Assembly: GCF_003575975.1 (NCBI RefSeq)
Contig: NZ_QQXK01000019.1
Span: 1-64,000, forward strand
DNA from: Galactobacter valiniphilus
GTDB taxonomy: Bacteria; Actinomycetota; Actinomycetes; Actinomycetales; Micrococcaceae
Direction: 5' to 3'
DNA: 64,000 bases
Translations under genes and position numbers: made by a program
In this document: positions 20,078 through 63,732 of the stretch, piece by piece
How positions within the stretch are numbered: position 1 is the stretch's first letter
How the letters are laid out: every line of letters begins with the position of its first letter
Notes under the pieces: generated by a model
Databases searched by the model: none
What the model was told of the DNA's origin: nothing
What the model saw: only the letters and a program-made list of their open reading frames with translations

Positions 20078-20761
20078 ATGAACGAGACGATGATCGTGCG
20101 CGGCTTCGTGGCAACGGAGCCCTCGCTGCGCACGTTGGAGAGTGGTCTGCACGTGGTGAGCTTCCGGCTCGGATCCACGCCGCGGCGGTTCGACAAGGCC
20201 ACCTCGACGTGGGTGGACGGGGAGACCAGCTGGTACACCGTCTCCTGTTTCCGGGAGCTCGCCGTCAATGCGCAGGTGTCGCTGAAGAAGGGCCAGCCCG
20301 TCATCGTGTTGGGCCGGCTTAAGGTGCGGCAGTTCTCCCGCACCGACGGAAGCCCCGGCGTGAGCGTGGAGCTGGACGCGGAGACGCTCGGACACGATCT
20401 GCGCTTCGGCGCAGGCACCTTCGGGCGGACCAACCGCGAGCAGCACGCCGGCTCGGCGCCCGGGGCGCCGGGTGGCGACGGCGGGGACAGCGCGGAGGGC
20501 GGGCCGGCCGAGGACGGGGTGAGCTCGGGGCAGGGAGCTCCGGTGGCGGCCCGGGGAGAGGGAACTCATGCAGCGGTGGCCCCCGATGGCGCCGCAGGCG
20601 ACGGTGGTGCGGACGGATGGGCGCCGGGGTATGCGGGCCCACCGCCTGACTTTGCCGTCGGCGCGGGGGAGGAACCGAACGGAGACGACGACGCCCTCGA
20701 GCCCGGTGTGGATCTCGAGACGGGCGAGATCACCGGGGTGGACGCCGACGCTGCGGCCTGA
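20078..20761 (+). CDS. Single-stranded DNA-binding protein, chromosomal paralogue
   Basis: A 227-residue protein with an OB-fold over residues 1-110: MIVRGFVATEPSLR, GLHVVSFRLGSTPRRFDK, WYTVSCFRELAVNAQVSLKKGQPVIVLGRLK. ATG 20078 follows GAGGAGGAATC; the upstream open frame is not coding. The C-terminal half is Gly/Ala/Asp-rich and lacks the acidic DDxPF tip of the main replication SSB, so this is likely an accessory paralogue. It immediately precedes the ettA start, an arrangement known in related Actinobacteria. Confidence 0.85.
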   Translation: MNETMIVRGFVATEPSLRTLESGLHVVSFRLGSTPRRFDKATSTWVDGETSWYTVSCFRELAVNAQVSLKKGQPVIVLGRLKVRQFSRTDGSPGVSVELDAETLGHDLRFGAGTFGRTNREQHAGSAPGAPGGDGGDSAEGGPAEDGVSSGQGAPVAARGEGTHAAVAPDGAAGDGGADGWAPGYAGPPPDFAVGAGEEPNGDDDALEPGVDLETGEITGVDADAAA

Positions 20762-21091
20762 GGCTGGGTTGCGGGCCCCGCGACCGGGGCGCGGGGCGCC
20801 TGGCGCCCGGCGTCGGCCCGCCCCTCCGGCGCCCGCCGTCCCGTCCCCCTGGGGCGGCGGGTCCCCCCACGGCGCTTGCCAGAGCGGATAGACTGAGGGT
20901 TGATGGGATCGCGTCCTCACGCGTGCACCCCGTTCCAGTCCCTCTTCCCCTGCGCGGCACCAGCTGCCCGGAGGCGAAGCGCGGCCGGACGGCGGGCAGG
21001 CGAGGGAGCGGATCCCGCGCGGGGAACTTCCCGCACCACCCCCGGGCACGGCCGTTGGCTTGGCCCCTCGCAAGCACGAAGAGTGGAGAGC
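20762..21091. other. Intergenic region and leader of ettA
   Basis: This 330-bp segment between the SSB gene and the ettA start is very GC-rich at first and contains several inverted repeats. TAGACT at 20889-20894 is a possible -10 for ettA with no good -35. No plausible gene is seen. Confidence 0.45.
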
Positions 21092-21175
21092 ATGGCGGAG
21101 TTCATCTACACCATGTTTTCCCCGGGGTGCGCGCTTCCCAGCGTTGGCGCGGATTGTGCCCCTACTTCCGTGTAA
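21092..21175 (+). pseudogene. ettA: ettA 5' end, interrupted after codon 8
   Basis: The frame starting at ATG 21092 reads MAEFIYTM and then FSPGCALPSVGADCAPTSV before a stop. MAEFIYTM is the conserved start of actinobacterial EttA, the ABC-F energy-dependent translational throttle, which should continue KARKAHGDK-like for about 555 residues. The rest does not match EttA, and phage genes follow immediately. The SSB gene directly upstream is the normal ettA neighbour. I interpret this as the host target gene cut by prophage integration; the remainder should lie beyond the right prophage end. Confidence 0.75.
21110..21160. other. attL: Putative left attachment site (attL)
   Basis: The switch from EttA coding sequence to unrelated sequence occurs at about 21113-21118. 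Exact core and arm limits cannot be set without attR. A junction inside a coding gene rather than a tRNA is typical of large serine integrases, but the integrase is not in the window. Confidence 0.5.
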
Positions 21176-21368
21176 TTCCGGGGATCTGCTTAGGTGAGGC
21201 CGGGGTGCCTGCACGCTCTGCGCGTGAACTGAAACGACAGAGAAACGACAGAGAGCACGAGGCCCGTGAGGCGGCCGCGCCGCCGGGTCCCAGCCGAGCC
21301 GGGACAAACGGCCACAATCTTGCCGCTTGGTATCGTCGGGGACAAAGCGAGGCCTTGGTGAAACGACG
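21176..21368. other. Prophage left-end non-coding segment
   Basis: About 190 bases between the ettA break and the late terminator. It has a tandem 11-bp direct repeat GAAACGACAGA (21231-21241, 21242-21252) and a partial third copy GAAACGAC at 21360-21367. These could be recombination accessory sites. No gene with a convincing ribosome site is seen. Confidence 0.4.
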
Positions 21369-21402
21369 AAAGCGCCCCACCCTGTGAAGGGTGGGGCGCT
21401 TT
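21369..21402. terminator. Terminator of the late operon
   Basis: A perfect 15-bp stem (21369-21383 with 21388-21402) with GTGA loop ends in AAA/TTT and lies directly after the holin gene stop. It ends the minus-strand late transcript and can work in both directions. Confidence 0.85.
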
Positions 21403-21403
21403 G

Positions 21404-21790
21404 TCATGCCTGGTGCCGTCCGGGTTCGTCCTGGATGGCGTGGCCGGAGTAGTCGGCGTCGGGGTCGGAGCCGTCGTAGGCGGGGAGCTCGTCCACCGAC
21501 TCCGGCTCCTGGACCTCGAGGTCAGCGGCCGCGGCCGCAGTGTTCGCCGCGGCGATCGCCTGGGCCTCGGCGAGCTCGGGATCCACGCTGGCCGGCACGG
21601 GGGCCGGGTTCACGATGGACGTGAGCACAGAGGCGAGCGTGGCCAGGGCCGCGATGGACAGCGCGAGGCCCCACTGGACGGCGCCGAATGCGATGCCGGT
21701 GCCGCCGATGGAGCCGAGCAGGGACTGGGCGAAGGTCTTGATGGCGCGCTCGGCGGCGCCCTTCCAGAATGCGATGGTGAACATGTTCAT
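21404..21790 (-). CDS. Holin (r1t-like family)
   Basis: A 128-residue membrane protein. The N-terminal half has two hydrophobic helices (FAQSLLGSIGGTGIAFGAV and ALSIAALATLASVLTSIV), and RAIKTFAQSLLG followed by a second helix is the pattern of the phage r1t holin family. The C-terminal half is acidic and Pro/Ala-rich and presumably cytoplasmic. Its gene directly follows the endolysin gene. It should form the membrane lesion that releases the endolysin. Confidence 0.8.
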   Translation of the reverse strand: MNMFTIAFWKGAAERAIKTFAQSLLGSIGGTGIAFGAVQWGLALSIAALATLASVLTSIVNPAPVPASVDPELAEAQAIAAANTAAAAADLEVQEPESVDELPAYDGSDPDADYSGHAIQDEPGRHQA

Positions 21791-21792
21791 CC

Positions 21793-22566
21793 TCAGACGT
21801 TGATGCCGTGCTTGCGCAGGGCCTTGATGGTGGTGGGGCCGACTACTCCGTCGGGCTTGAGGCCGGTGCGGCGCTGGAACTCGCGCACGACCTTGGCGGT
21901 GTAGGGACCGAACTTCCCGTCGCCGCCGCCGGCGAAGCGGCTGTAGGCGGGGAAGGCGCGGTTGAGCCCGGCCTGCAGCTTCTTGATGCGGGCGGCGTTG
22001 TTCTTGGGGTTGCCCTCGTAGAGCAGAGAGGTCGATCCCTTCGCCGCGGTGACGGCGGGCTTCTTGGTGGGGGTCTTGCCGGTGGTCGAGGGGGCCTTCT
22101 CGCCGCGGAGCTTGGCGGCGACGCGGGCCACGGCGGCGGCGTTGGCGTTGATCTCGAAGTGCATGCCGTCGACGATGGAGAGCTTGCGGTTGTAGTCCTC
22201 GCCCCAGCGCACGACGTTCTCGAGCTGGTTGCGGAGGAAGCCACGGATCTTGGCGGCCTGCGCGGGCGTCCAGGTCCCCTCGCGTCCGCGCCCGTGCAGG
22301 AGCGCGTTCACGTCGATGGCCGTGTAGCTGGCGTGGTTGGAGTAGCCGGTGGTCTTGCCGCGGATGGGGCGGACGTTTCCGCCCCAGTCGTCGGCCCCGC
22401 GCTCCAGGCTCTCGACCTCTCGGTCGATGAACTCCACGAGGGCGGTGAAGATCGTGGCCACATCGCCGGCACGCACGCGGCCGATGATGTGGGGGATCTT
22501 GGTGGTGTTCTTGTCAGTGGCCGTGAAGATCACGGGCCACCCGTTCTGGCTGATGGCGCTCGCCAT
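21793..22566 (-). CDS. Endolysin: M15-type peptidase with peptidoglycan-binding domain
   Basis: A 257-residue cell-wall hydrolase. The N-terminal domain has the M15/VanY zinc pattern: SNHASYTAIDVN with ligands H78 and D85, and DGMHFEI with H136. A Thr/Lys-rich linker near 155-175 leads to a C-terminal PG_binding_1 domain (IKKLQAGLNRAF, DGKFGPYTAKVVREFQRRTGLKPDGVVGPTT). It probably cleaves stem peptides. There is no signal peptide, so release depends on the holin. No second lysin (LysB) gene is present. Confidence 0.87.
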   Translation of the reverse strand: MASAISQNGWPVIFTATDKNTTKIPHIIGRVRAGDVATIFTALVEFIDREVESLERGADDWGGNVRPIRGKTTGYSNHASYTAIDVNALLHGRGREGTWTPAQAAKIRGFLRNQLENVVRWGEDYNRKLSIVDGMHFEINANAAAVARVAAKLRGEKAPSTTGKTPTKKPAVTAAKGSTSLLYEGNPKNNAARIKKLQAGLNRAFPAYSRFAGGGDGKFGPYTAKVVREFQRRTGLKPDGVVGPTTIKALRKHGINV

Positions 22567-27565: not shown

Positions 27566-30500
27566 TCACTTCAGGCGCGGAGTAACCCGCGCAATCTCCT
27601 GACCAAGACGAGCCACTTCACGGTCGCCAATAGCAACCGGCGCCGGCTGCATCTGCACTCGAGTCATCGCCTCAGCCAGACGGTCGTAATCAAACTCGGC
27701 AGGTTGCCCCTGCGAAGCCGCAAACGCCTGCACCTCAGCCGAAGCCGGGAGCCGGTACTGCGGCTGATACGCCGCCGCCTGAGCCTCCGCAAGATCCCGC
27801 ATCGCACGCTCGTTCTCCGGAATGGAGTCACGAACACCCAACGCAGCACCCTTACCAGCCCACACACCCGCCGCCTTCAGAACACGAGACGGCGACTTGA
27901 TGCCCAACGCCTTGCGGAACGCCTTCTCGCCAGCCGTGCCCATCTTCGCGAACGCCTTCTCAACGGCGGAGATCTGGGACTCAATGCCCTTCACCACGCC
28001 CTGCGCCGCGTTCACGCCGCCCGTGTACATCGACTCGGTGAGGTACGTGCCAGTGGCCGCCCCGTACCGCTCGACGTCCTTGAAGTAGGACGTCAACTGC
28101 CGCTGCTCCGTGGTGTCCATCGTCATCAGCGCGTCGGCCAGCTCGAACGTCTGAGTTGACGCCCACTCGTCGATGACCTGCTGGATCATCGCGGACGGGA
28201 AGCCCCACTTCTTAAGCCAAGCCACCTTCTGCGACAGCTTCTTCGCGCCTGCCGCCATGTTCTTGCCGTAAGCAAGGACAGACTTGTCGGTTACCTTCTG
28301 CTTGTAGCCCCACTGATCCGTCTTGCCGGTCAGTGAACCGAAGTCCATCGCACCCTTGACCTGGTCGCGCACACCGTCATGCACACCAGCGAGCTCGTCG
28401 TACTTCGACTGAGCCGACTCAAGACGCTTCTCAAGCATCCCCTGCTTGAGCGTCAGGCTCTTGGTCTGGCGCTCCTGCGCGTAGGCGAGCTTGCGCATGG
28501 TGGCGCGTTGCTTCGGAGACAGATCCTTGTTATTCGACGCCTCGAACAGTGCATCGACGCCCGAGTAGTTCCCCGCGCCGTAGTTGTCCCGGATGTCACC
28601 CCGGTACAGGTCACGGCGCGTGTCGAACTCGAGCTCGCGCAGACGGCTCGTGCGCTCACGATCATCCTGGTAGGCCTTCTCGGCGCGCTCCAAGGCCTTG
28701 TCAGCCTTGTCCGACCGCTTCTTCGCCGCCGACAACTTCGACTTCGCCGACGACTTCGCGCCCTTGTTGGCCTTCTTCCCGTCGATCTTGTCGTAGGTCT
28801 TCTGGGCGGCCTTCTCAGCCTTCTCAGCAGCCCGCGCCTCAGCCTTCGCCTTAGCCAGCGCCGTCTTCGACTTTCCCTGATCCTTCGAAGACCACGACAC
28901 ACGACCACCAGACGCCAAAGCCGCGAGCCCCTGCACGGCCGGGTCGTCCGCGTTGATCGCCGACAGGAGCCCGTGGTACTTCTGCGACGACTTCCCGTTG
29001 ATGATCCACTCGCCGGCATCCACGCGAGCCAACGGCATGCCCTTGTGGTTGACACCGAGGAAACCGTCTGTCTTCTCAGTGCCCGGTCCCGCGGTTGGCA
29101 GGCGGTAACCCGCCGCGTGACCCGGGAGTCGGCCGCCAGTCGCCTTGCCGCCTGCGGCCGATGCGGCGGCGGCCAGAGCGCCGGTAGCTCCACCAAACAC
29201 CGCAGAGATGACCATCTGCCGCGGCTGCGCCAACGCGCTGAGCCAGCGCGACGCGAAGTCACTGCCCTGGACCGCGTTGAACGGGGCGTTCCGAGGGGCG
29301 GCCAGCGGGTCCAAGAACCCGGACGCTGAGTTGGAACCCGGCGTAGCGTTGAACGGCGCGTTCCGCGGATCCGCCTTCGGGTCCAGCCACCGGGACGCAT
29401 CATCCGCGCCCGGAACCGCGTTGACCGGCGCGTCCGTAGGGTACTTGTACCCTTCGAGCCACGGGCCCGCCGAGTCATGCCCCGGAACCGCGTTGACGGA
29501 AGCGTCCTTCTCGTCCGGGAGCTGAGCCCAGTACGGCAGGAACGAGTTCTCGCCCGGCTTGACGTTGACCTTGGCGTCGACGCTTTCGGGCACCTCACCC
29601 ATCGCCGCCTTGGTCTCCTCGGCCGTCTTCTTGGCGGTGTCCTCCATCCAGGACTTGACCTTCACGTCCTTCGGGATGCCCATCACTTCGCGGGCGAGCG
29701 CTTCGGCGGCGGACTTGCCGATGCCGAAGCCCTTGGCCGTAGACACAAGGTCGTTGTAGGTGGTGTTCAGACTCGCCTGTAGCTTCCCCTGCCCAACACC
29801 GTCGTTCGCCATTGCCGTGACCTTCGCCATGCCATTCTGAGCAAGGCCCTGGAAAGCGGCGTTAGCCTTCTGGCCGGCTTCCGTGGTGAAGTCAAAGTCG
29901 GTCTTGGCCTTGTTCAGGGCCTTGCCGAGCTGCCCGGAAGCGATCTCCTTCTGTGTGTCGGCGATCGTCTTGAGGCCCTGCTCGTACTGCACGGCGGCGT
30001 CGCGTGCGGACATGGTGGCCATGCCCGACGAGAACAGCAGGTCAAGGAACTTCTGCATGTCCGAGACTGCGCCCTCGGCAGAGACTCCCACCGCGGCGAG
30101 AGCTTCCTCTAGCGCGGCGTTGGCTGCCTGCGCCTTCTGTGCGGCCTCGGCCTGCTGCTGCTGTGCGGTCGTGAGCTGCTTGGTCCCATCGGCGGCGGTG
30201 GACATGAACTCGGCGCCACCACTCATGGCGGCGTTGAGCAGATCCTGCCCTTCGATGTTCTTGTCCTGCGCATTGGCAGCCTCGACGAGCGCCTTCTTGT
30301 AGCCGGGCAGGATGTCCAAGGCGGCCTGCATGGCCTCCGGACCCTCCTTGCCCTGCGCCTTGAATGCGTCCGTGATCTGCTGGAACACCTTCGCTGCGGC
30401 CTCGGCGTTGCCGCCGGAGACCATCTTCCCCATCTCGTCAGAGAAGGAGGAGAACTTCTCCTGCAGCTGCGTGAAGTCCGACTTGGCCAGGCCCGTCCAC

Positions 30501-32686
30501 GCGAACGTCTTGTCTGCCCACGAGTTCAGGCCCTGGCCCATCGGCGGGTTCGCGAGCTTCGCGATCGCGTCGTTGAGGTTGTTCACGTCATCGAGGGTGT
30601 TCTGCCCGAACATCTTCGCGCCGTCGCCGAGCATCTTGTCGATGCCTGACAGGTCACCGGTGTTGCTGAGCTTGAGGATCGCGTTCGCGAAGTCCTCAGC
30701 CGTCGCTACCGATTCCTCGGTGATGGCGTGGCCGACGGCGGACAGGGCTGCCGCGGCGAGCCCGACACCCATGGCGCCCTTGCCGATGACGCCCATGGCC
30801 TTGGCAAGCTTGCCCGGTCCCTTCTCGGCGCGGCCGAAGCTGATGCCCAGATCGGAGAGTGCACCCTTGGTGGTGCTGACGAAACCGAGGACCTTGCCGG
30901 CGGCACCACCCAGGAGCAGGGCCGCGCCAGCGAAGCCAGTCAGGGACGTCAGGGCAGACTTCACCGGACCCGGGAGCCCGTTGAAGGCGTCAGCGATGCC
31001 GCCCACAATCTCGGCGACCGTGCCCACGGCCGGCGCGAGGGCTTCGCCCGCGCTGATCGCCGCGTCCTTGATCTTGTTCCACGCGACCTTCACCTTGGAC
31101 GCGGCCGTGTCATAGCGCTTGTCTGCCTCGTCGACGAGAGCCGTGTTCTCCTTCCAAGCCTGGTTGCCCAGCTTGAGCGAGTCCGTGAGCAGGTCTCCGG
31201 AGTTCGCCAAGGCCAGCATGACCTGGGTTTCTTCGGTGCCCTTGATGCCCATCGACTTGAGGGTCGCCGTGACGTTGCCGCCCTCAGAGTTGACCCGGTT
31301 GATGCCCTTCGCGACCAGGTCGAGGGCCTCCATGGGGGCGGACTTGAACTTGGCAGCGAAGTCGTCGGCGCTGACGCCTGCGACCTGAGCGAAAGACTCG
31401 AGGGACTGGCCGCCCTCGTCCACCGCCGTGCGCATCTTGAGGAGCACACGGGTGGCGACGCCGCCGCCGAGCTCCGAACGCACACCCATCGACGCGAGGG
31501 TGTTGGACAGGGCCAGGAGGTCAGACTCGGACCCGCCAAGGGTCTTCACTGCACCGGCCATACGCTGGGCCATGGAGAGGATCTCAGCCTCGGTCGAGGC
31601 GCCGTCGTTGCCAAGGGCCACGAGCGTGGCGCCGAAGCGCGAGACACCTTCGGAGCCGTCGCGGGACATCGTGCCCATGACGTTGGAGATCTGGGCGATG
31701 TTCGTGGCGGCATCATCGGCGGTCAGGTTCGTGGTCTCGCCGAGGTCGATCATCGTCTTCGTGAACCCGACGATGTCCTTGCGGGCCACACCGAGCTGGC
31801 CGGCGTTCTCTGCGACGGCCGCGATCTCCTGATGGGTGGAAGGCAAGGTCTTGGCGAGGCCGCGCAGACCGGCCTCGACTTCGGCCATCTGCTGCGGGGT
31901 CCCGTCGACGGTCTTGGTGACGCCAGTCCAGGCGGACTCCCAGTCCATGGCGGCTTTCACGCCGAGCACGGACGTGGCCGTCAGGGCTGTGCCGGTGCGC
32001 ATCGCAGTCGAGGACACTTCCGAGAGCGACTGCTGGAACGCCTGCGACCGCTGAGCCGCGTACACGGCGGCGGTCGACTGGGCGGCCAGGCCCATCCGGG
32101 CGGCCTTCGATGCAGACACGGTGCGGCCGAACTGGTCGACGAGCTGGCCCTGGGCGTCATACAGGAGGCCGGCGTTCTGCGCGGCTGCGTTGGCGGTCTT
32201 GCCCATGGCCAGCGTCGAAGTGGCGACGCGCTGCTGGTTGGTGGCGTTGAGGCGCTGGGCTGCGGCGGCCTTCTCGGCCGACTGCTCGATGACGACGGCG
32301 GCCTTCTTCGCGGCCTCCTCCGACTTCTTCGACCCGGACGCCGAGTCCTCGCCCGCCTTCTTGCCCTTGCGGCCAGCGTCCTGGGACTTCTGGCCGAGCT
32401 TCTCCTGCGCGGCCCCGGCCTTGTCGGCCCCGGTCTTGGCCTTGTCGGAGCCCTTGGCGGAGTCGTCGCCTGCGGTCTTGGCCTTCCGGCCCGCCTTCTC
32501 GGCCTGGTCGGCGGCCTTGCCCTGCGCCTTCGCGCCCTGCTCGGCTCCCTTTTGCGCGGACTGGCCTGCCTTCTCGGCTTCTTTCGCGAGCGACTGGAGC
32601 GAGGCGCCGGCCTTACTCATGTTCGCTTCCCAGTTGCTGAGGTCGACGGTCAGGCGGGCGGTGAGGGTCTGAGTCAGGTCGGCCAC
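27566..32686 (-). CDS. Tape measure protein
   Basis: A protein of 1706 residues that sets tail length. The start is GTG 32686, because GGAAGGAG, which would lie inside a longer ATG-started frame, serves as its ribosome site. The N-terminus has a long Ala/Lys/Gly coiled region; a PhageMin_Tail-type domain follows (LRGLAKTLPSTHQEIAAVAENAGQLGV). Hydrophobic segments lie in the middle (VKSALTSLTGFAGAALLLGGAAG), and repeated VNAVPG-type motifs occur near residues 1060-1160. At about 0.15 nm per residue the tail would be near 250 nm. Confidence 0.93.
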   Translation of the reverse strand: MADLTQTLTARLTVDLSNWEANMSKAGASLQSLAKEAEKAGQSAQKGAEQGAKAQGKAADQAEKAGRKAKTAGDDSAKGSDKAKTGADKAGAAQEKLGQKSQDAGRKGKKAGEDSASGSKKSEEAAKKAAVVIEQSAEKAAAAQRLNATNQQRVATSTLAMGKTANAAAQNAGLLYDAQGQLVDQFGRTVSASKAARMGLAAQSTAAVYAAQRSQAFQQSLSEVSSTAMRTGTALTATSVLGVKAAMDWESAWTGVTKTVDGTPQQMAEVEAGLRGLAKTLPSTHQEIAAVAENAGQLGVARKDIVGFTKTMIDLGETTNLTADDAATNIAQISNVMGTMSRDGSEGVSRFGATLVALGNDGASTEAEILSMAQRMAGAVKTLGGSESDLLALSNTLASMGVRSELGGGVATRVLLKMRTAVDEGGQSLESFAQVAGVSADDFAAKFKSAPMEALDLVAKGINRVNSEGGNVTATLKSMGIKGTEETQVMLALANSGDLLTDSLKLGNQAWKENTALVDEADKRYDTAASKVKVAWNKIKDAAISAGEALAPAVGTVAEIVGGIADAFNGLPGPVKSALTSLTGFAGAALLLGGAAGKVLGFVSTTKGALSDLGISFGRAEKGPGKLAKAMGVIGKGAMGVGLAAAALSAVGHAITEESVATAEDFANAILKLSNTGDLSGIDKMLGDGAKMFGQNTLDDVNNLNDAIAKLANPPMGQGLNSWADKTFAWTGLAKSDFTQLQEKFSSFSDEMGKMVSGGNAEAAAKVFQQITDAFKAQGKEGPEAMQAALDILPGYKKALVEAANAQDKNIEGQDLLNAAMSGGAEFMSTAADGTKQLTTAQQQQAEAAQKAQAANAALEEALAAVGVSAEGAVSDMQKFLDLLFSSGMATMSARDAAVQYEQGLKTIADTQKEIASGQLGKALNKAKTDFDFTTEAGQKANAAFQGLAQNGMAKVTAMANDGVGQGKLQASLNTTYNDLVSTAKGFGIGKSAAEALAREVMGIPKDVKVKSWMEDTAKKTAEETKAAMGEVPESVDAKVNVKPGENSFLPYWAQLPDEKDASVNAVPGHDSAGPWLEGYKYPTDAPVNAVPGADDASRWLDPKADPRNAPFNATPGSNSASGFLDPLAAPRNAPFNAVQGSDFASRWLSALAQPRQMVISAVFGGATGALAAAASAAGGKATGGRLPGHAAGYRLPTAGPGTEKTDGFLGVNHKGMPLARVDAGEWIINGKSSQKYHGLLSAINADDPAVQGLAALASGGRVSWSSKDQGKSKTALAKAKAEARAAEKAEKAAQKTYDKIDGKKANKGAKSSAKSKLSAAKKRSDKADKALERAEKAYQDDRERTSRLRELEFDTRRDLYRGDIRDNYGAGNYSGVDALFEASNNKDLSPKQRATMRKLAYAQERQTKSLTLKQGMLEKRLESAQSKYDELAGVHDGVRDQVKGAMDFGSLTGKTDQWGYKQKVTDKSVLAYGKNMAAGAKKLSQKVAWLKKWGFPSAMIQQVIDEWASTQTFELADALMTMDTTEQRQLTSYFKDVERYGAATGTYLTESMYTGGVNAAQGVVKGIESQISAVEKAFAKMGTAGEKAFRKALGIKSPSRVLKAAGVWAGKGAALGVRDSIPENERAMRDLAEAQAAAYQPQYRLPASAEVQAFAASQGQPAEFDYDRLAEAMTRVQMQPAPVAIGDREVARLGQEIARVTPRLK

Positions 32687-32725
32687 GCGGGCTCCTTCCA
32701 AGAAAAGCGAACCCCCGCCGCCAGG

Positions 32726-40244: not shown

Positions 40245-41810
40245 TTACTCGGTCTCGGGCTCGTCATCCGGTGCGGGCGGCTTGCCGCCGCGGTACCGAT
40301 TCGCGAGCGCGGCGCCGACCTGCTCGTCGTTGTCGCGCTGGTCGACCCACTCGCCCGCGTCGTCGGTCATCTTGTCGATGAGCTCGGCCACGTTGGGCAC
40401 GCGCAGCGCGTGGAGCACGAGCTTGGCCAGCTCGACCATCGGCAGGACGCCGAGGCTGTCGGCGACCTCGAGCGCGTCGAGCACCGTCTTCACGTCGGGT
40501 TCGTCCATGTCCGGCCAGACCACGTTGATGGTGACCTCGGTGGCGTCCGTGAACTCCACCGTCATGCGGTCGTCCTCGGGGACCACGCGGCCCTTGAGGG
40601 AGCCTCGCGGGGCGATGACGTGCTGCTCGATGACGAACTGGATGGACGCCCGGTCGGCGGCCTCCCAGAGTCGCTGACGGGCGCGCATCGCATCCTTGGT
40701 GGGCTTGTCCAGGGTCTCGGCCACGGCGCGGGCCCCGGTCGTTCCGGGGTCAGCGGTGAGCATCGTGACGGGCAGGTCCAGGGCCGCGGCCACGAGCGAC
40801 ACGATCGGCCGGCCCGAGTCCGCGTCGACGGTCGCGCCGGACACGTTCGCGGCCTTGAGTTCGCCGGTGCCCGTGGCGATCGTCCCGCCGGCGCCCTGCA
40901 TGCTGGCGACGGCCTGCGCCGCGGCGCGCATCTGCTGGGACTTGCCGTTGGGGTCGACCACCTGCCACGCGACCTTGGAGAGCGCCTTCACGAGGGTGAG
41001 CCAGTCGGACAGGAAGCCCTCGTAGCGGATCGCGAACGGTGCCGCCGCGTAGGCGTCGGGGATGCCCCAGCGGGAGCCGCGCCCCGCGGTGCGGGAGGAC
41101 ACGTGCAGGATCGCCGCGCCGCCGATCTCGCCGGGCCACAGCACCTCGATGCCGTCGATGAGCTTCGGCTTGGCGCGGGGCTGATGCCGCAGGTCCGGAT
41201 ACCAGGCCTTGCGCTGCACGGCGGAGAGCCCGTAGCCGGTCTCCGTCCACTCGCGCAGGTAGTAGTGCGGGGTGAAGCGGTCGCCGGGCGCCGTCATGAT
41301 CTGGGTGATCTCGTTGAACGTGATCGGGCGGACCTGCACGTGCCCGGTCATGCGGTCCACGAAGTGAGCGCGGAAGTGGTTGCCGTCGGAGAACAGGTCG
41401 CCTTCGGCTTCCTCGCGGGCCTCGGCGCCGAAACAGGCGGCCTCGTTGCGCTCATCGGTCAGGAAGCCCTGCACCACGTGGTCGACGTCCTGGCCGTTCT
41501 CCTGCTCGGCGGCGCTGATCGTCACGCCAGTGCCCCACACGTACCCGGTGCGCACGCCCAGGGCGCGGCGCAGGAGCGGGTTCGCGACGGTGAGGCCGCG
41601 CAGGGTGTCGGCCTTCGCGCCGAGCTCCTCCCGGCTGATGAGGTCCGATCCGAGCCCGGTGAGCGGCTTCCAGCCGATGTCCTCGCGGCGAAGCGACGCC
41701 AGGGACTCGGTCAGGCGCTCAACCTCGAGCGAGAGCGTGTCCACTCGGTGCGCGGGCACCATCGGCTCGGTGGCCTCCACGGCGGTCTTGGTACGGCCAA
41801 ACAGGGCCAT
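40245..41810 (-). CDS. Portal protein
   Basis: A 521-residue protein between terminase and Mu-F-like genes. SP beta/DUF-type actinophage portal features include VANPLLRRALGVRTGYVWGTGVTI, LREWTETGYG, WPGEIGGAAILHVSSR and the late LPVTMLTADPGTTGARAVAETLDKPTKDAM, the region contacting DNA. It forms the dodecameric DNA channel. Length and place are normal. Confidence 0.88.
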   Translation of the reverse strand: MALFGRTKTAVEATEPMVPAHRVDTLSLEVERLTESLASLRREDIGWKPLTGLGSDLISREELGAKADTLRGLTVANPLLRRALGVRTGYVWGTGVTISAAEQENGQDVDHVVQGFLTDERNEAACFGAEAREEAEGDLFSDGNHFRAHFVDRMTGHVQVRPITFNEITQIMTAPGDRFTPHYYLREWTETGYGLSAVQRKAWYPDLRHQPRAKPKLIDGIEVLWPGEIGGAAILHVSSRTAGRGSRWGIPDAYAAAPFAIRYEGFLSDWLTLVKALSKVAWQVVDPNGKSQQMRAAAQAVASMQGAGGTIATGTGELKAANVSGATVDADSGRPIVSLVAAALDLPVTMLTADPGTTGARAVAETLDKPTKDAMRARQRLWEAADRASIQFVIEQHVIAPRGSLKGRVVPEDDRMTVEFTDATEVTINVVWPDMDEPDVKTVLDALEVADSLGVLPMVELAKLVLHALRVPNVAELIDKMTDDAGEWVDQRDNDEQVGAALANRYRGGKPPAPDDEPETE

Positions 41811-41828: not shown

Positions 41829-43331
41829 TCACCAGGTGGAGAAGTCCACCGGGGTGAAGTCGTCGAACAGATCGCCCGGGGTGACGCGCCCACCATTGAT
41901 GAGCGGGTGCAAGAGCATCTGGTTCACGGCTTGGGAGAGCGCATCGACAGTGTCGTCGTGCTTGGACGTCGGGAAGTTCACGAGCTCCTCGCGCAGCTCC
42001 TCCACGTTCGGGAGGAGCGCCGCGGTGGGGAGCTTGATGTTCCCCGCGAACGCGAGCGGCGAGACGGCCGAAGCGCGGGCGATCTTGGAGCCCTCCGGCA
42101 TCACCGGCACGAGGCCGACGAGCTGGCGCTGCAGGGCGTTGATCACGGCCGGGCCGTTGGCCTTGTCCTCCACGAACGTCTGGATGGCCTGGGGCCATCG
42201 GGCGCGCATCGCAAGGATGGCCTCGCACGTCGCGTTGAAGTTCATGCGCCGGCGGACCATGTCCAGGAGGAACATCTCGTTCTGGACGCGCAACCACACC
42301 TGCCCGACGACGTAGTCGGATCCCTTGGTGTCGGAGAACGTGAGGTCCCAGGACATGGCCAGTTCGTGGTCGTCGCGTTCGCCCACGCCGGGAACCCAGC
42401 GGGAGCCGTCCGGGCGTTCCTGCCACGGAGCCACGTCGTAGGTGGCCCAGTCGCGGGGGAAGATCCCGCCCTCGTCAGGGGTCGGCTTGCCCTGGTAGAG
42501 CGCCGCCCAGGATCGGGGGCCGGTGTCGCGCTTGCGGCGCTCCCACTGCGCGGCAGTCATGCCTCGCGTGGTCACCATCCACTCGCCGGGCTCGCGGCCC
42601 AGCGGGTCAGTCTCGCCCAGCTCGGGGCGGTGATCGGCTTGGGCTGGGATGTTGAGGACGCGCCAGTCCTCGCCGCCGTTCTCCGGCTTGAGGACTTTCC
42701 CGCCGAGGTCGTCGGGGGACCAGCGCGTCATGATGATGATGGCCGGCGCGCCAGGGGCGAGGCGAGTCATGGCGACTTCACGCCACCAGTCCCAGTTGCG
42801 TTCCTGGTAGCGGGCGGAGTCGGCGTCCTCGCGGCCCTTCACGGGGTCGTCCACGATCATCAGGTCGGAGGGCCGGCCAGTGAGCGACGCACCCACACCG
42901 GCGGTGAACACGCCGCCGTCATGCCCGTCGAGCTGCCACTCGGACTGCGACGAGACGTCATGTCGGATCACAAGGCCGCCGAGCGCGTCGCCGTGCTCGT
43001 TGATGTCGTCGCGTATCGTGCGGCCCCAGCGGCGGGCCGTGTCCGTGTTGTAGGAGCAGACCGTGATGCGGGTGTCCGGGTTCTGGGAGAGCGCCCACTC
43101 AGCGAAGCGGCGCGTGGCGCGCTGAGACTTGCCGGCCTGCGGCGGCACGCTGATGATCAGCCGGGCGTCGGGCGTGTTCCAGGCCCACACGAGGGCCTCG
43201 TCGATGAGGTCCATCGCCCGGGTCTGCACCGTCTTCGGGTCGAGCGCCTGCGCGAGCTCGCCGGGAGTGGCGAAGCGCGGCTTGGGCTTCTCGAAGGCTT
43301 GGGCCATGAGGCCGAACACGGAGGTCGTCAT
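41829..43331 (-). CDS. Terminase large subunit
   Basis: A 500-residue packaging motor. The ATPase domain has Walker A SVPPQAGKSQ (61-70) and Walker B DLMIVDDP (156-163); IIIMTRWSPDD follows as the coupling region. The nuclease domain carries D329 in SWDLTFS, E388/D389 in VEDKANGP, and KHDDTVDALSQAV (458-469). ATG 43331 follows AGGAGG. The sequence resembles the headful and cos terminases of Terminase_6 type; the packaging mode cannot be set. Confidence 0.93.
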   Translation of the reverse strand: MTTSVFGLMAQAFEKPKPRFATPGELAQALDPKTVQTRAMDLIDEALVWAWNTPDARLIISVPPQAGKSQRATRRFAEWALSQNPDTRITVCSYNTDTARRWGRTIRDDINEHGDALGGLVIRHDVSSQSEWQLDGHDGGVFTAGVGASLTGRPSDLMIVDDPVKGREDADSARYQERNWDWWREVAMTRLAPGAPAIIIMTRWSPDDLGGKVLKPENGGEDWRVLNIPAQADHRPELGETDPLGREPGEWMVTTRGMTAAQWERRKRDTGPRSWAALYQGKPTPDEGGIFPRDWATYDVAPWQERPDGSRWVPGVGERDDHELAMSWDLTFSDTKGSDYVVGQVWLRVQNEMFLLDMVRRRMNFNATCEAILAMRARWPQAIQTFVEDKANGPAVINALQRQLVGLVPVMPEGSKIARASAVSPLAFAGNIKLPTAALLPNVEELREELVNFPTSKHDDTVDALSQAVNQMLLHPLINGGRVTPGDLFDDFTPVDFSTW

Positions 43332-44516: not shown

Positions 44517-44655
44517 GGGGGCCTCCTGGTGGTTTGGTCCCGGGCAGGTCACCCTCGGCTAGAAGAAGTTGAGCCGTCGTGGGGTGCCTTCGGTGGAGTG
44601 GACGGTGGGGAGCAAGTAGAAACCCGGCCGCCCGTGAGCCGTTGACCCGGGGGAG

Positions 44656-44729
44656 CTGACACCGCAGGAGTCGAACCTGCATCGTCCGGTTTTGGAGACC
44701 GGCCATCTACCTGTTGAAAGTAGGTGCCA
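44656..44729 (-). tRNA. Phage tRNA-Trp (CCA)
   Basis: On the minus strand TGGCACC pairs with GGTGTCA (one G-T), the anticodon arm is CCGGT-CTCCAAA-ACCGG (anticodon CCA), the T-arm is GCAGGTTCGACTCCTGC, and discriminator G73 fits Trp identity. The D-stem CTTT/GATG has one mismatch. It lies between the non-coding leader and the late genes. Confidence 0.75.
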
Positions 44730-52822: not shown

Positions 52823-53560
52823 TCATGCGAGGCCTGCCAGGGGGAGGACTCCTTGGGAGAGCCGTTTGGCGGTGGTCTCGCATTGTTCTTCGCGGATCTC
52901 GTAGCCGATGGCGCGGCGTCCGAGGTTCTTGGCTGCGGCGAGGGTGCTCCCTGATCCGGCGAAGGGGTCGAATACGAGTCCGCCGGGCGGGCAGGCGTAG
53001 GCGATGAGGGGTTCGAGGATGCCGACAGGCTTCTCGGTCGGGTGGATTCCTCCACGCACGGATTGAGCGCGAAGCACTGATCGCTGCAGTCGTAGGCCGT
53101 CGTCCACGTATGCGCTCGCGCCGATCTTGCCGGTGTGAGTCGGCGGCGGATTCCGGCGGACGCTCTTCGTGCCGCTACCGCCTGCGACCCGCGGCGTCTC
53201 ATGTCTGACTCCCGCCCAGTCTCCGCGGTACCAGTGGAGGGCGTGTTCGTGAACGCGCTTGAATCGGTCGGTGGCAAAACCGGAGCCGTTGTGTTTCTCC
53301 CAGACGATGTCCTGTGAGAGCTTCCAGCCGGAGAAGTCGGCGGCGTGGTCGAGGAACATGCGCATGGAGCCGAAGCACCACATGGAGTTCGCGATGGCGG
53401 TCATTGATTCGACCCAGCCGGTGGGCCAGACGTCCCAGTCGAGAGAGGTTTCACCGTAGGGCGGGTCGGTCACGATGGCGTCGGCCGTCATGTTCCCGAT
53501 AGCTTCGCGGAAGTCCCCGTGGTGGAGCGTGACGTGCTCGTCTCGGTAGTAGATGCTCAT
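52823..53560 (-). CDS. DNA adenine-N6 or cytosine-N4 methyltransferase (beta class)
   Basis: A 245-residue methyltransferase. Catalytic motif IV is TDPPY (31-35) and the AdoMet motif I is FDPFAGSGSTLAAA near residues 197-210; this order (IV before I) marks the beta class. No restriction gene is beside it. It likely protects phage DNA from host restriction or regulates phage genes. The recognition site cannot be read from sequence. ATG 53560 overlaps the upstream stop. Confidence 0.87.
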   Translation of the reverse strand: MSIYYRDEHVTLHHGDFREAIGNMTADAIVTDPPYGETSLDWDVWPTGWVESMTAIANSMWCFGSMRMFLDHAADFSGWKLSQDIVWEKHNGSGFATDRFKRVHEHALHWYRGDWAGVRHETPRVAGGSGTKSVRRNPPPTHTGKIGASAYVDDGLRLQRSVLRAQSVRGGIHPTEKPVGILEPLIAYACPPGGLVFDPFAGSGSTLAAAKNLGRRAIGYEIREEQCETTAKRLSQGVLPLAGLA

Positions 53561-53721
53561 CCCTTGGCCTCCTGTTCGTGCTCGCGGCAGAGGGCGGTGA
53601 TGGTCCCGCCTTCCCATTGGTCGTCGGAGAAGCGGTCGAGGTAGATGCTCCCGGTGTAGGCGGATTCGAAGGCGTCGCATCCCTCGGCGGAGCACTGGAC
53701 GTAGATGTAGTGGCTGCTCAT
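53557..53721 (-). CDS. 54-residue phage protein with Cys/His pattern
   Basis: Starts MSSHYIYVQCSAEGCDAF at ATG 53721 (ATGA overlap) and ends with CREHEQEAKG. The C-C-C-H arrangement suggests a small zinc finger. Function unknown. Confidence 0.55.
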   Translation of the reverse strand: MSSHYIYVQCSAEGCDAFESAYTGSIYLDRFSDDQWEGGTITALCREHEQEAKG

Positions 53722-54029
53722 CCCTTCGCCTCCCCGTCGAGCAGGGCGCGGAGGGCGGCGGCCGCGTGACCGTACGCGGAGGCGCTGCCAGGATCGTTCT
53801 CGTCGTGTGCTGCCCATCCTTTTGCATGCAGGGCGGCTGCCAGCGCTTTGATCTCGTCGCGGAGGCGGTCACGGTCGGCTTCGACGTCGTTGAGGTAGTC
53901 GAGGTGTTCTGCCTGGTATTGGGTCTGCCACTGCCGCCGGGTTGCTTGCTCGTGGGCGAGTTGGGCGAGGGCGTTGTCTCGCTCCTGTTCGGCGTCGTGC
54001 ACGGCGCGCTGCCAGTTCTTGGTGCTCAT
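53718..54029 (-). CDS. Coiled-coil phage protein
   Basis: A 103-residue protein with long helical content (QRAVHDAEQERDNALAQLAHEQATRRQWQ and DVEADRDRLRDEIKALAAALHAK). It probably oligomerises. Function unknown. Confidence 0.55.
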   Translation of the reverse strand: MSTKNWQRAVHDAEQERDNALAQLAHEQATRRQWQTQYQAEHLDYLNDVEADRDRLRDEIKALAAALHAKGWAAHDENDPGSASAYGHAAAALRALLDGEAKG

Positions 54030-57161: not shown

Positions 57162-57392
57162 CTAGTCAACGTGTCGGTGAAATGCGGCGGCTTGCCGCTC
57201 GATGTCGTGCGTCCAGTGGTGTCCGCCGCTCGCGCATATGTAGTAGCGAACGGGAAGGGTGTCCCCGCTGGCCTGACGTGCAGCCGTGGCATCTTTTCTG
57301 GTGGGGTAGTAGGCCTTCCCGCACCCGCATGTCGCCGCTTGGACCCGGCCGACAGGGAACGCCGGGCCGCGGCGCCGCGTCCGGGTGCTCAT
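57162..57392 (-). CDS. Small zinc-binding-like phage protein
   Basis: A 76-residue basic protein: CGCGKAYYPTRKDATAARQASGDTLPVRYYICASGGHHWTHD. The pattern C-C...C..HH suggests a zinc finger. ATG 57392 overlaps the methyltransferase stop (ATGA). Confidence 0.6.
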   Translation of the reverse strand: MSTRTRRRGPAFPVGRVQAATCGCGKAYYPTRKDATAARQASGDTLPVRYYICASGGHHWTHDIERQAAAFHRHVD

Positions 57393-58756
57393 GCGGCGAC
57401 GAGGGACTCGACGCCGACGCGGATGAGGTCGCGGGCGGCCGGCGGGGTCACGGCGTTGCCCATTTGCTTGGTCCTCTCACGCTTGTTTCCGGTCACGACG
57501 TAGTCCTTGGGGAAGGCCATGCCGACCTGGATCTCGTGGGGCTCAAGCATGCGGAACTCGCAGTCTTCAACGTTGATGGACTGGGGGCTGGCGAGGCCGT
57601 GGTGGGTGCCGTTGGCGGCGAACGTGTCGAGCGGCTGGGTCACGTCCTTGGGGGCGTTGGTGCCGCGCATGGTGGCGACGAACGCGGCCCGGGCATGCTC
57701 GGGGACGAGGATCCCGGTCTCGTTGCGGGTGGTCTGGGTGCGCATGGCCTCGTGAACCGCCTGGGCCTGCTTCCCGTCACGCCCCTCGACGGGCACGAGG
57801 AGCGAAGCGTGGAGGCCGCCGGCCACGAGCGTGCGCAGCGGGTCCGTCGCCAGGTCCGTGCGCGAGGAGTCCGAGCCGCTCAGGTTGTTGACCACCAGCG
57901 GATCCCGGCGCCCCGCATACTTGTCCAGGCCTGCCTTGATGCGCGCCATGGTCTTGTCCGCGAGGGGCTTGGCGCGGTCGCCGATGCGCTGGCCTCGGAT
58001 GGACCAGTCGATCGCGGATGCGGCAGGAAGCCACCCGGGTTCGATGATCTGGCCGCGGCAGGTGCCCTTGGGGCAGCGCCACACGTACTGGGAGCGGTAG
58101 CGTCCCCAGCGGTCCTTCTTGAAGGACTGAATGGCGTCCACGGTCTCGTCGCACGAGGGGCAGTAGGCCTTGGGGCGCAGGCGGTTGAAGTCCGGCGCCT
58201 TGTTGCCCTTCTTCCAGAACATCACGTACATGCGGTCACGGGACTGGGGCGCGGGGAGCCCGCCGGCCTGCGCATGCATCGAGTTCATGTAGACGATGTG
58301 GTGCTCGTAGCCGAGGGAGTCCATCGCGTGCAGCCAGGCAGGGAACATCACCCACTTCGCGGCGTCCACGACGTTCTCGGTGATGATGAGCCGGTAGTCG
58401 TGGTGCTCGGCGAAGCGGGGCACGTCCCACATGGTGGCGCGGGAGCGGTCGGCGGCCTCGTCGGCGATGGACTCGCCGAACAGATCGGGCTGGTTGGTGA
58501 CGCGCTTGCGGCCCTTAGCCACGGAGTGGTTTGTGCACTCGGGGGACGCCCAGAGGATGTCGGACGGGGCGACGTAGCGGGGGTCGGTGATGCTGATGTC
58601 CGCCTGGATGTGCGTGGCATCGGGGTGGTTGGTGTTGTGGGTCTCGATGGCGCGGGCCCAGTGGTTCATCGCGGTGCGGACCTCGACGCCGGGCACGGAG
58701 AGCGCTCCGGTCGAGGAGCCGCCGGCGCCGCAGAACATGTCGGTGAGGGTGAGCAT
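57389..58756 (-). CDS. C5 cytosine DNA methyltransferase, ASPEC variant
   Basis: A 455-residue enzyme. Motif I is DMFCGAGGSSTG (6-17). Motif IV is ASPECTNHS with Cys74, in place of the usual GPPCQ-FS. ENV (128-130), QSRDR (171-175) and GNAVTPPAARDL near the end complete the set. A zinc-binding insert (C199, C202, C228, C233) sits before the target recognition region. It likely protects phage DNA from restriction; this variant form is known from actinophages. Confidence 0.85.
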   Translation of the reverse strand: MLTLTDMFCGAGGSSTGALSVPGVEVRTAMNHWARAIETHNTNHPDATHIQADISITDPRYVAPSDILWASPECTNHSVAKGRKRVTNQPDLFGESIADEAADRSRATMWDVPRFAEHHDYRLIITENVVDAAKWVMFPAWLHAMDSLGYEHHIVYMNSMHAQAGGLPAPQSRDRMYVMFWKKGNKAPDFNRLRPKAYCPSCDETVDAIQSFKKDRWGRYRSQYVWRCPKGTCRGQIIEPGWLPAASAIDWSIRGQRIGDRAKPLADKTMARIKAGLDKYAGRRDPLVVNNLSGSDSSRTDLATDPLRTLVAGGLHASLLVPVEGRDGKQAQAVHEAMRTQTTRNETGILVPEHARAAFVATMRGTNAPKDVTQPLDTFAANGTHHGLASPQSINVEDCEFRMLEPHEIQVGMAFPKDYVVTGNKRERTKQMGNAVTPPAARDLIRVGVESLVAA

Positions 58757-59039: not shown

Positions 59040-60272
59040 TTACGCGGCAGAGGCGGCGTCGGCCGGAGCGACGATCTCGCCGTCCTCGATGACGTAGCCG
59101 TCCTCACGTGGGCCGACCATCTCGATCCAGATCTGGAAGTCGTGGGCTTCGGCCTGCTCCTTGATGAGCGCGAGCGAGCGCGGATCCAGGAGAGAGCCGT
59201 CAGCGATGCGGATCACGCGCAGGCCCGGGTTCAGCGCCATCGCCATGGCCATGGACACGCGGATCTGCTCGGCGGACGAGGCCTGCTTGAACGGGACACC
59301 CTGGAACGTCACGCCCTGCGTGTCGAAGCCAAGCCCGTCGACCGGGAACTCGGCCGCGGCGAGCCCGGCCGCCTTCTCCTTGTCGAACGCGGTGAGCGCA
59401 GCGGTCATGATGTCCGCCTGCTTGCGCAGCTCGGCGAGCTGGTGCTCGGCGGCGGCGCGCTCGCGCTTGGCACGCACGGCCGCGTTGATGGTGTCTGATG
59501 CGGCGATCCGCTCTTGGATCTCCGCCGGGTCAGCGGTCGGCGCGGGCAGGCTGGCGAGCCGCTCGGCGTTGACCAGCGCATCGGCGCGCAGGCGCTCGAG
59601 CTCATGCTCCGCCTCACGCACGCGTCGCTGGGCCACGGTGACGTCCTGCTCGGCCTGCGCGTACGCGGCGCGGCCGGCGTTCGCGGCTTGGAGCTCGGCG
59701 ATGAGTCCTGCCGCTGAGACTTCCTCGTCCGGGGTGTCGGCGGGCACCTGCGGAAGCGAGGCGACGTAGCCCTCCCCGGTCTTGACCCGGCGGTTGACCT
59801 CGGTACGCTCGGCGAACGTCGCGGCACGGCGGGCGTCCAGCTCTGCGAGGTCGAACGGCAGATCCACGAGGGCGAGCAGCTGGGCGAGCTGGTCGCGGTC
59901 GGAGAGCTGGGTGAACGCCAGCGGATCCAGGGCGAGCTTCCCCACGATCTCGTCGAGCTTCGCCTGACCCTTGGAGTACGTGGCGCCGTCCTTGGACTTG
60001 ACGACGAGCCGAGAGTCAGACTCGGTAAACACGCGGGTAACGATGAGCTCCTCGGTCTCGAGGACGATCTCGGCGCGGTCGGCGCCGTCGCGGATGGGCT
60101 TGGGCGTGATCTTGGCGTTGTAACCGCCGAGCGCCGCGGCGATGGAGTCCAGCACGGACGACTTCCCCTCGCCGTTGTTGCCGGACAGGATCACGACGTT
60201 GCCCTCGGGGGTGATGTCGACGCGGCGAGCACGCTTGAAGTCGGTGGTGGTCAGGCTGACGATCTTCGACAT
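59040..60272 (-). CDS. SbcC/RecF-like ATPase with coiled coil
   Basis: A 410-residue protein from ATG 60272. Residues 1-110 are an ABC-type ATPase N-lobe with VVILSGNNGEGKSSVLDSI (Walker A 31-38). Residues 155-310 form coiled coil (QAEQDVTVAQRRVREAEHELERLRAD). The C-lobe has ASSAEQIRVSMAMAMALNPGLRVIRIADGSLLDP, a signature/Walker B region. It is a short SMC-like protein, as in many phage recombination cassettes, located by RecT and exonuclease genes. Confidence 0.78.
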   Translation of the reverse strand: MSKIVSLTTTDFKRARRVDITPEGNVVILSGNNGEGKSSVLDSIAAALGGYNAKITPKPIRDGADRAEIVLETEELIVTRVFTESDSRLVVKSKDGATYSKGQAKLDEIVGKLALDPLAFTQLSDRDQLAQLLALVDLPFDLAELDARRAATFAERTEVNRRVKTGEGYVASLPQVPADTPDEEVSAAGLIAELQAANAGRAAYAQAEQDVTVAQRRVREAEHELERLRADALVNAERLASLPAPTADPAEIQERIAASDTINAAVRAKRERAAAEHQLAELRKQADIMTAALTAFDKEKAAGLAAAEFPVDGLGFDTQGVTFQGVPFKQASSAEQIRVSMAMAMALNPGLRVIRIADGSLLDPRSLALIKEQAEAHDFQIWIEMVGPREDGYVIEDGEIVAPADAASAA

Positions 60273-60309
60273 GGGTTTTCTCCTTGGTGATGGGGTGGGT
60301 ACTGCTCGT

Positions 60310-60380
60310 GGCGCGCCGGGACTCGAACCCGGGTGTGTGCCGCTCGCGCCGGCGGGTTCTACCCGCCGCCTACATGTGCT
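60310..60380 (-). other. tRNA-like T-arm and hairpin, incomplete tRNA
   Basis: On the minus strand CCGGG-TTCGAGT-CCCGG is a perfect T-arm, and a 7-bp hairpin GGCGGGT-AGA-ACCCGCC lies about 25 bases upstream. No matching 5' acceptor or D-arm is found. It could be a tRNA remnant or a tRNA-like structure in the gap before the ATPase gene. Confidence 0.35.
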
Positions 60381-63031: not shown

Positions 63032-63333
63032 CAGGCCGCGTCCAGGAACAGGGCCCGACGCCGCTCTGGGTTCGGTGCCCAGATGCGGGTGAGGCGGCCG
63101 CGGGCCGGGCCGCTGGTGGCCTTCTTCGCGCCGTCCTCGACGATGTAGCCGAGGTCCCGGGCCCGAGTCAGGAGCGACCCCCACTGGTTCGGGTGGTACG
63201 GCTCGCCGATCTCTGCGTGCAACTCGTCTGCGGTGAAGCGACGCCCGTCCTTGGCCCACTGCTCGATGAGCGCCAGACCGCGGGCCGCCCACGTCGCGGT
63301 GGCCTGGTTCTCGAGTGCCATCGGGGTGCTCAT
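63031..63333 (-). CDS. Winged-helix-like phage protein
   Basis: A 100-residue protein: LIEQWAKDGRRFTADELHAEIGEPYHPNQWGSLLTRARDLGYIVEDG fits a winged-helix DNA-binding fold. The C-terminus is basic (RGRLTRIWAPNPERRRALF). It may regulate early genes. Confidence 0.6.
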   Translation of the reverse strand: MSTPMALENQATATWAARGLALIEQWAKDGRRFTADELHAEIGEPYHPNQWGSLLTRARDLGYIVEDGAKKATSGPARGRLTRIWAPNPERRRALFLDAA

Positions 63334-63692
63334 GCCGCCACCTTGGCCGTGGCGTTGCGGCGGGGCGTCGGCTTCGCATCGGCCGGCACGTGCACCTCGT
63401 AGAGGTAGTCAAGGTCGACGCCGAGGGCTTCGGCGATGCGCTCGGCGATGATCGGGCGGGAGCCCTTGTTCTTGCCGGACAGCAGGTGGTTGATGGACGA
63501 GCGCCGCTGGTCAGTCTTGGGCGTTCCGTCGGGGTTGAGTTCGGTGAGAACGGGGCTTTCGCGGTAGACCTCGCGGGCCAGCGAGGCCTGCGTGTAGCCG
63601 CGGTTCTTCATGAGGTTGGCGAGGGTCTTGGGGTCCCTGAGACGCATGTACGTCCCTTCCTTCCATCGACGTCGAGAGGTACGGGTGGCCAT
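63330..63692 (-). CDS. Cro/CI-type HTH regulator
   Basis: A 120-residue protein from ATG 63692, with AAGGAGAA upstream. The HTH_XRE core is TLANLMKNRGYTQASLAREVY, SSINHLLSGKNKGSRPIIAERIAEALGVDLDYLY. First gene of the rightmost minus-strand unit, as for a Cro-like regulator. It probably binds the GTTTAC-type operators beside its promoter. Confidence 0.82.
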   Translation of the reverse strand: MATRTSRRRWKEGTYMRLRDPKTLANLMKNRGYTQASLAREVYRESPVLTELNPDGTPKTDQRRSSINHLLSGKNKGSRPIIAERIAEALGVDLDYLYEVHVPADAKPTPRRNATAKVAA

Positions 63693-63718
63693 GGGTTCTC
63701 CTTCTTCTAACTTTCGTT

Positions 63719-63729
63719 GACTGGTAAAC
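63719..63729. promoter_or_regulatory. Phage operator copy at the early promoter
   Basis: GACTGGTAAAC (reverse GTTTACCAGTC) lies directly downstream of the -10 at 63733-63738 on the minus strand, as at 49626. Confidence 0.6.
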
Positions 63730-63732
63730 AAC

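Follow-up and report, generated by a model that had tools for sequence, protein, structure and literature searches.

The window analysed here (64,000 nt) comprises bases 1-64000 of the 69,860-base contig C10 of the draft Galactobacter valiniphilus genome (3.4 Mb, 99 contigs), and positions beyond its end are given as contig coordinates (C10). The ssb gene, which in this family usually lies upstream of ettA, is located at 20078..20761 on the forward strand (Pfam SSB, E 3.5e-19), and was upstream of ettA in 6/6 Micrococcaceae regions examined that hold ettA. It is followed by the hexamer TAGACT (20889..20894, +), taken as the probable -10 element of the native promoter, and by the probable native ettA leader of approximately 197 nt (20895..21091, +). 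The start codon at 21092, located 330 bp 3′ of ssb, opens a reading frame of only 27 codons (21092..21175, +), which consists of MAEFIYTM, 19 unrelated, phage-coded residues and a stop codon, and which has the same length in a sibling prophage (L013, a metagenomic phage end). A preliminary description of this DNA had recognised MAEFIYTM as the start of EttA after ssb, running on into unrelated sequence, and had proposed that a prophage interrupts ettA after codon 8; both proposals were borne out.

A 40-bp sequence at 21076..21115 (+) forms the attL core and is repeated exactly at C10:66279-66318 (attR), with this second copy 2.3 kb beyond the window end. The core contains the Shine-Dalgarno sequence, the start codon and ettA codons 1-8, and ends with codon 8. 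Between the two copies lies a prophage of approximately 45.2 kb carrying phage genes (21116..64000, on to C10:66278; no strand assigned), and beyond its right end ettA continues from codon 9. The site is empty in 3/3 other Galactobacter species, where the left flank of attL is joined to the right flank of attR. In a survey of the family the pattern of ettA codons 1-8 was found in 364 of 395 genomes, and in one of the order that of codons 2-8 in 154 of 396; among the matches listed, it occurs twice only in the prophage genome in either survey. The preliminary description would have given up the insertion if an intact ettA lay elsewhere; none was found in the genome, and the insertion reading stands. 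Site-specific insertion of the prophage of a temperate tailed phage at the 5′ end of ettA was confirmed. Assembly or binning might have joined a phage to the ettA region by mistake, especially in a draft of so many contigs, but a single contig spans both junctions with the exact core, an independent metagenome shows the same attL, and the integrase genes of unrelated phages are followed by the same core (described below), and such an artefact is scarcely credible.

Terminase, portal, head, tail and lysis genes are all present, and the element has the features of a temperate tailed phage with a tyrosine integrase. They include genes for an endolysin (21793..22566, -; phrog_1512, E 4e-38), a tail tape-measure-like protein (27566..32701, -; PhageMin_Tail, E 3.5e-14), the portal protein (40245..41810, -; phrog_10963, E 1.9e-94) and the terminase large subunit (41829..43331, -; phrog_38, E 1e-99, and Pfam Terminase_6C). 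An HTH regulator (63330..63731, -; phrog_8, E 8e-10) is divergent from the lysogeny row, which lies all or mostly beyond the window and is composed of a repressor (C10:63943-64554, +), an M78 metalloprotease (ending at C10:64987, +) and the tyrosine integrase (C10:64984-66198, +; PF00589, E 3e-13), with matches to phrog_12831, phrog_87 and phrog_1 (E 3e-51), respectively. The metalloprotease and integrase (int) genes overlap by ATGA, and the row lies on the ettA strand and reads into ettA, with the core 80 bp past the int stop codon and the ettA start codon 96 bp past int. The prophage also encodes its own tRNA-Trp (cca; 44655-44729, -), as well as two DNA methyltransferases and an AAA ATPase (52823-53872, 57389-58756 and 59040-60422, all -), with the ATPase matching phrog_1499 (E 6e-92) and its best defence-library matches lying mainly over the N-terminal ATPase part. 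A second, distant integrase-like gene (25% identity) is located elsewhere in the genome (G000:C11:3125-4249).

Tyrosine integrase arm sites are typically laid out as repeat pairs near both ends of the element. A pair of AAACGACAGA repeats, 11 bp apart, is located at 21232..21252 (+) with a matching pair at C10:66157 and 66168, and this 10-mer, a putative arm-type site, has only four copies in the contig. The left prophage end further contains a strong hairpin (21365..21405, no strand assigned; -37 kcal/mol, with z -5.7 for one strand and -6.6 for the other), which is likely to be a two-way terminator and is kept in the sibling L013; it has no T run and was missed by the terminator scan. The sibling is approximately 90% identical over 1.5 kb of phage sequence and has the same attL except for a 7-base repeat. 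This is a tandem copy of ACGAAGA beside the core (approximately 5110-5135 of L013, - strand), which is absent from the three empty sites compared and which a slipped crossover or a small duplication could explain.

At attR, ettA starts at C10:66295 and runs for 560 codons without an internal stop, encoding two ABC_tran stretches, an ABC_tran_Xtn linker (E 3e-14) and the MAEFIYTM start. It is the sole orthologue in the genome, the next best match being 32% identical. The preliminary description had expected the lysogen either to be without EttA or to make it from a phage-derived start, with excision as the switch that turns ettA on. Codons 1-8 are indeed cut from the remainder of the gene at attL, and an in-frame ATG on the phage side (C10:66217) could give a longer EttA, with nothing favouring it over the kept start. 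Against this, attR carries an exact second copy of the Shine-Dalgarno sequence, the start codon and codons 1-8, and because the core holds all of these the frame is rebuilt there and unbroken over 560 aa, which makes inactivation or a new N-terminus very improbable. Excision as an on/off switch is likewise unsupported, as the frame is whole with and without the prophage. In active-lysogeny switches of the hlb and comK kind the gene is broken in the lysogen and whole only after excision, and ettA is whole in the lysogen. Since int reads towards ettA, lysogeny exchanges only the promoter and leader and leaves EttA unchanged, and with these as the only difference between the two states a change of EttA level is possible. 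The native promoter and leader remain at attL, where they lead into the 27-codon stub and then the hairpin.

A scan of viral contigs with the codon 2-8 pattern gave six stretches, representing the Galactobacter phage, its sibling, an ordinary ettA (L110), a chance match and two new cases (L109 and L111). L109 comes from an IMG provirus of an isolate (G405), whose record starts with TACACGATG and ends with GTGGCTGAGTTTATCTACACGATG, the terminal GTGGCTGAGTTTATCTACACGATG being located 54 bp past the integrase gene. The complete Rhodococcus phage ReT1v-1 (LC859273; host Prescottella equi) has an integrase 85% identical to that of this provirus, and its attP has codons 1-8 beginning 54 bp past int, with a stop codon directly after; pairs of the repeat GCGGGACC, 11 bp apart, are located on both sides of the core. 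ReT1v-1 thus resembles the Galactobacter prophage both in its core of codons 1-8 after int and in arm pairs spaced 11 bp apart on both sides. L111 is located in a 91-kb metagenomic contig (G406), where codons 1-8 lie 73 bp past int and the frame stops after one further codon; given this short frame and the phage-type genes on both sides, it represents an attP. The Galactobacter prophage is hereafter lineage A, ReT1v-1 and provirus G405 lineage B, and contig G406 lineage C, for which only the attP and no integrated copy was seen. A further IMG record (G407) has an integrase 99% identical within lineage B, and was not counted as a site because the record stops short of the core. The remaining candidates were set aside: L112-L117 and L119-L121 hit other genes or other frames, and phage-collection record MT835831, which ends in ettA, has plain chromosome without an integrase upstream. 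The latter (L118, MT835831.1, 16490-20721) is filed as phage and looks like bacterial chromosome.

The site is otherwise seldom encountered. No ettA start was found within 600 bp after int in nine other phages with related integrases (for two of these, within a shorter stretch, to the end of the available sequence), nor, allowing 3 substitutions, in 20 loci with approximately 1.5 kb of flank (L007-L012 and L015-L028). The lineage B core was found in none of 198 genomes of the phylum, and the Galactobacter core searched against the phage collection gave matches all at E 2 in the best 20 of 78 records. A peptide-pattern scan, which covers close relatives only, confirmed no close relative of the Galactobacter integrase in the species-genome collection, and only its own record was found in the viral contigs. 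The ReT1v-1 integrase gave a single match (49%) in 401 Mycobacteriaceae genomes at E 1e-70, with no ettA start in the 165 bases past int at that locus (L141). The preliminary description had called the site unusual, which holds for its rarity per genome and not for its use, which extends to at least three unrelated integrase lineages.

The integrases of the lineages are only distantly related, with identities of 29-31% between A and B (over 185-259 residues; 30% over 185 residues for ReT1v-1 versus Galactobacter), 25% between A and C, and 24-25% between B and C. In an integrase tree of 25 rows the ettA users are found in three places, with starred branches keeping lineages A and B apart, and constraining the five ettA-user rows (the G407 integrase included) to one clade costs 169 log-likelihood units (p-AU 1.6e-23). 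As the integrases are not one clade, the ettA site was taken at least three times (three changes). The integrase phylogeny thus shows that actinobacterial phages of no fewer than three integrase lineages came to the same eight codons independently. The alternative is that one ancestral ettA-specific integrase diverged and that the three phage groups inherited the site from it. In each group a tyrosine integrase gene lies upstream of the ettA core and reads towards it, the exact place of L111 in the tree is uncertain owing to its long branch (2.36), and phages may also have exchanged att regions by recombination; the rejection of a single clade and the use of other sites by the nearest relatives of A and B argue against shared descent, which we consider improbable.

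Many near relatives of the lineage A integrase have another motif after int. Five genomes of the family have integrase relatives at 11-30 kb from ettA, which were considered as ettA insertions and rejected. Of the 12 loci with downstream sequence inspected, 7 have the motif ACCCGGCGTA after int, as does phage Kukla, several times before a gene which, from reading its protein, we take to be GAPDH-like. In the form (A)CCCGGCGTA it is shared after int by 7/12 Micrococcaceae integrase loci and Arthrobacter phage Kukla (L089, L093, L094, L095, L098, L099, L100 and L105), and in the Galactobacter contig it occurs inside the prophage only.

The sequences upstream of ettA were compared between phages and hosts, with the hosts of lineages B and C assigned by core sequence only. 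The exact B core occurs in genome G962 and the exact C core in G1071 (one each among nine Mycobacteriaceae genomes, single copy); in both, the 1.5 kb around ettA lacks ssb. In lineage B, TAGGCT is located at -73 relative to the ettA start in the host and in both phages, and the stretch from -100 to -60, which in the phages is the 3′ end of int, is identical between host and phages at 27/40 and 29/40 positions although the att identity is only 25 bp (27/60 at -60 to -1). This likeness out to -100 suggests that the lineage B attP arose from host DNA that was captured together with its promoter. In lineage C, TAGGCT is located at -13 in both host and phage, with an att identity of 27 bp and no other clear likeness beyond the hexamer (4/20 at -80 to -60 and 24/60 at -60 to -1). 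In the phage stretches examined, TAGGCT occurs at 3.5e-5 to 8e-5 per position, and coincidence at the exact distance is therefore unlikely in each of B and C, for which imitation of the host promoter is likely.

In lineage A, TAGACT is located at -203 in the host and at -244 in the phage, inside int (C10:66051-66056), so that the putative imitation lies within int itself in two of the three lineages (A and B). This strand of the prophage has no other TAGACT, and the 290 bp preceding ettA have no other TANNNT. The Arg codon within the phage copy is AGA, which accounts for 2/37 Arg codons in int and 6/463 in 14 other prophage genes, and AGA is present at that position in 0/9 integrase relatives where the AVA-x-RLGH motif was found. 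Around the hexamer, phage and host are not alike (6/40 at -100 to -60), and TAGNCT was also found in the matching stretch (up to 267 bp, chosen after seeing the data) near the int end of 4/21 control integrase loci. Since some controls match, the distance differs and there is no wider likeness, promoter imitation in lineage A is only suggestive. The -35 boxes are weak throughout, and a consensus promoter scan of both host and phage sides found nothing.

Alternatively, ettA might lack a dedicated promoter and depend entirely on read-through from the lysogeny genes, with the EttA level tracking repressor transcription. The three lysogeny genes on the ettA strand, their ATGA overlap and the short int-ettA distance would allow this, and a terminator scan (the one that missed the left hairpin) found no site between int and ettA. 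The int-ettA gap folds moderately, however, better than 196/200 shuffles (z -2.3), and could thereby hinder read-through into ettA, and the hexamers at host distance in B and C also speak against read-through as the only source, which we regard as rather unlikely. We instead favour convergent integration at the ettA 5′ end with the frame rebuilt and with ettA transcribed from phage DNA, most likely from a host-like promoter, and place the probability of this reading at roughly 85%. The phage tyrosine integrase recombined at the 5′ end of ettA, with the 40-bp core restoring the frame at attR and the native promoter and leader left stranded at attL, where they can make only the stub before the hairpin. 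The intact ettA thus lies at the end of the repressor-metalloprotease-integrase row, and in the lysogen it would be expressed from phage DNA; the most likely source is a promoter within int or behind it which imitates that of the host, to which read-through from the lysogeny genes may or may not add. A need to keep EttA may be the simplest reason for the shared direction of int and the kept hexamers. A broader version, in which the ettA 5′ end is a general convergent attachment site for temperate phages of actinobacteria, where these imitate the host ettA promoter and lysogeny changes EttA level and translation, is tentative, and we would put it at somewhat below even odds.

With a crossover at the 5′ end of the gene and a whole frame at attR, the Galactobacter prophage belongs to the known class of 5′-end integrators that rebuild their target gene, of which prfC, dusA and torS are examples; host-like -10 hexamers, as candidates for a replacement promoter, are present in all three lineages, at host distance in two. 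According to the accessible text of PMC8409611, the integrative conjugative element SXT inserts at the 5′ end of another translation-factor gene, prfC (RF3), and supplies it with a new promoter and N-terminus, whereas the Galactobacter prophage keeps host codons 1-8 and the ribosome-binding site; SXT further differs in being a conjugative element of gammaproteobacteria. The same text describes IMEVchUSA3 in dusA, also a 5′-end site with the frame restored at attR, where the element promoter drives the gene and measured expression is lower, but where the N-terminus is changed (61% identity over 35 residues). Prophage HK022 likewise replaces a native promoter, which for ettA is judged from sequence, and the available part of PMC6814406 reports that a phage promoter raises torS expression and that the int promoter is not needed, although its site lies between torS and torT and not in the coding start. 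The Rhodococcus phage Sleepyhead (PMC13313380) has an integrase 47% identical to that of lineage B and rebuilds its target gene, but it enters this gene, for an acyl-CoA dehydrogenase, at the 3′ end, so that there is no promoter exchange.

No report of ettA as a phage integration site was found in the open-licence literature searched, including that on Galactobacter and Rhodococcus phages, nor any publication there assigning the integration site of ReT1v-1. The accessible excerpts of PMC11282234, PMC10497606 and PMC7042692 name EttA, not as a phage site, and the attB of the E. coli paper is a cloning locus. New here is the use of ettA codons 1-8 as attachment core in two further phage groups besides the Galactobacter prophage, and the interest lies in three independent choices of these eight codons, together with host-like promoter elements in the phages. 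Integration at a 5′ end obliges a phage to bring a working promoter, and the att region would therefore record what the host promoter needs. The three lineages, two with the hexamer at the host position, form a clean set for asking why ettA was chosen, with very conserved codons, an exchangeable promoter and a gain from controlling EttA as candidate reasons, and they make it testable whether prophages retune host translation. In E. coli, EttA relieves ribosome pausing and shapes metabolism (PMC11282234, accessible text), and a changed EttA level could therefore matter. If the broader version above is true, phage transcription drives a ribosome regulator, whose gene in Galactobacter has also lost its long leader, and lysogens would differ from non-lysogens in EttA level and, through it, in translation.

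The TAGACT 5′ of ettA is conserved in the four Galactobacter species compared, and the long leader after it measures 112-198 nt (20889-21091 of the window, and L030-L032). This leader was considered as a structured RNA and rejected, as its folding energy differs little from that of shuffled sequences in three of the four species (z -0.4, -0.1 and 0.5; -2.1 in the fourth) and it has no match in Rfam. Across the order, a TANNNT hexamer is located 11-14 bp before the ettA start in 17 of 28 loci, comprising 0/4 from Galactobacter and 17/24 of the others, which suggests that ettA transcripts are leaderless in the latter.
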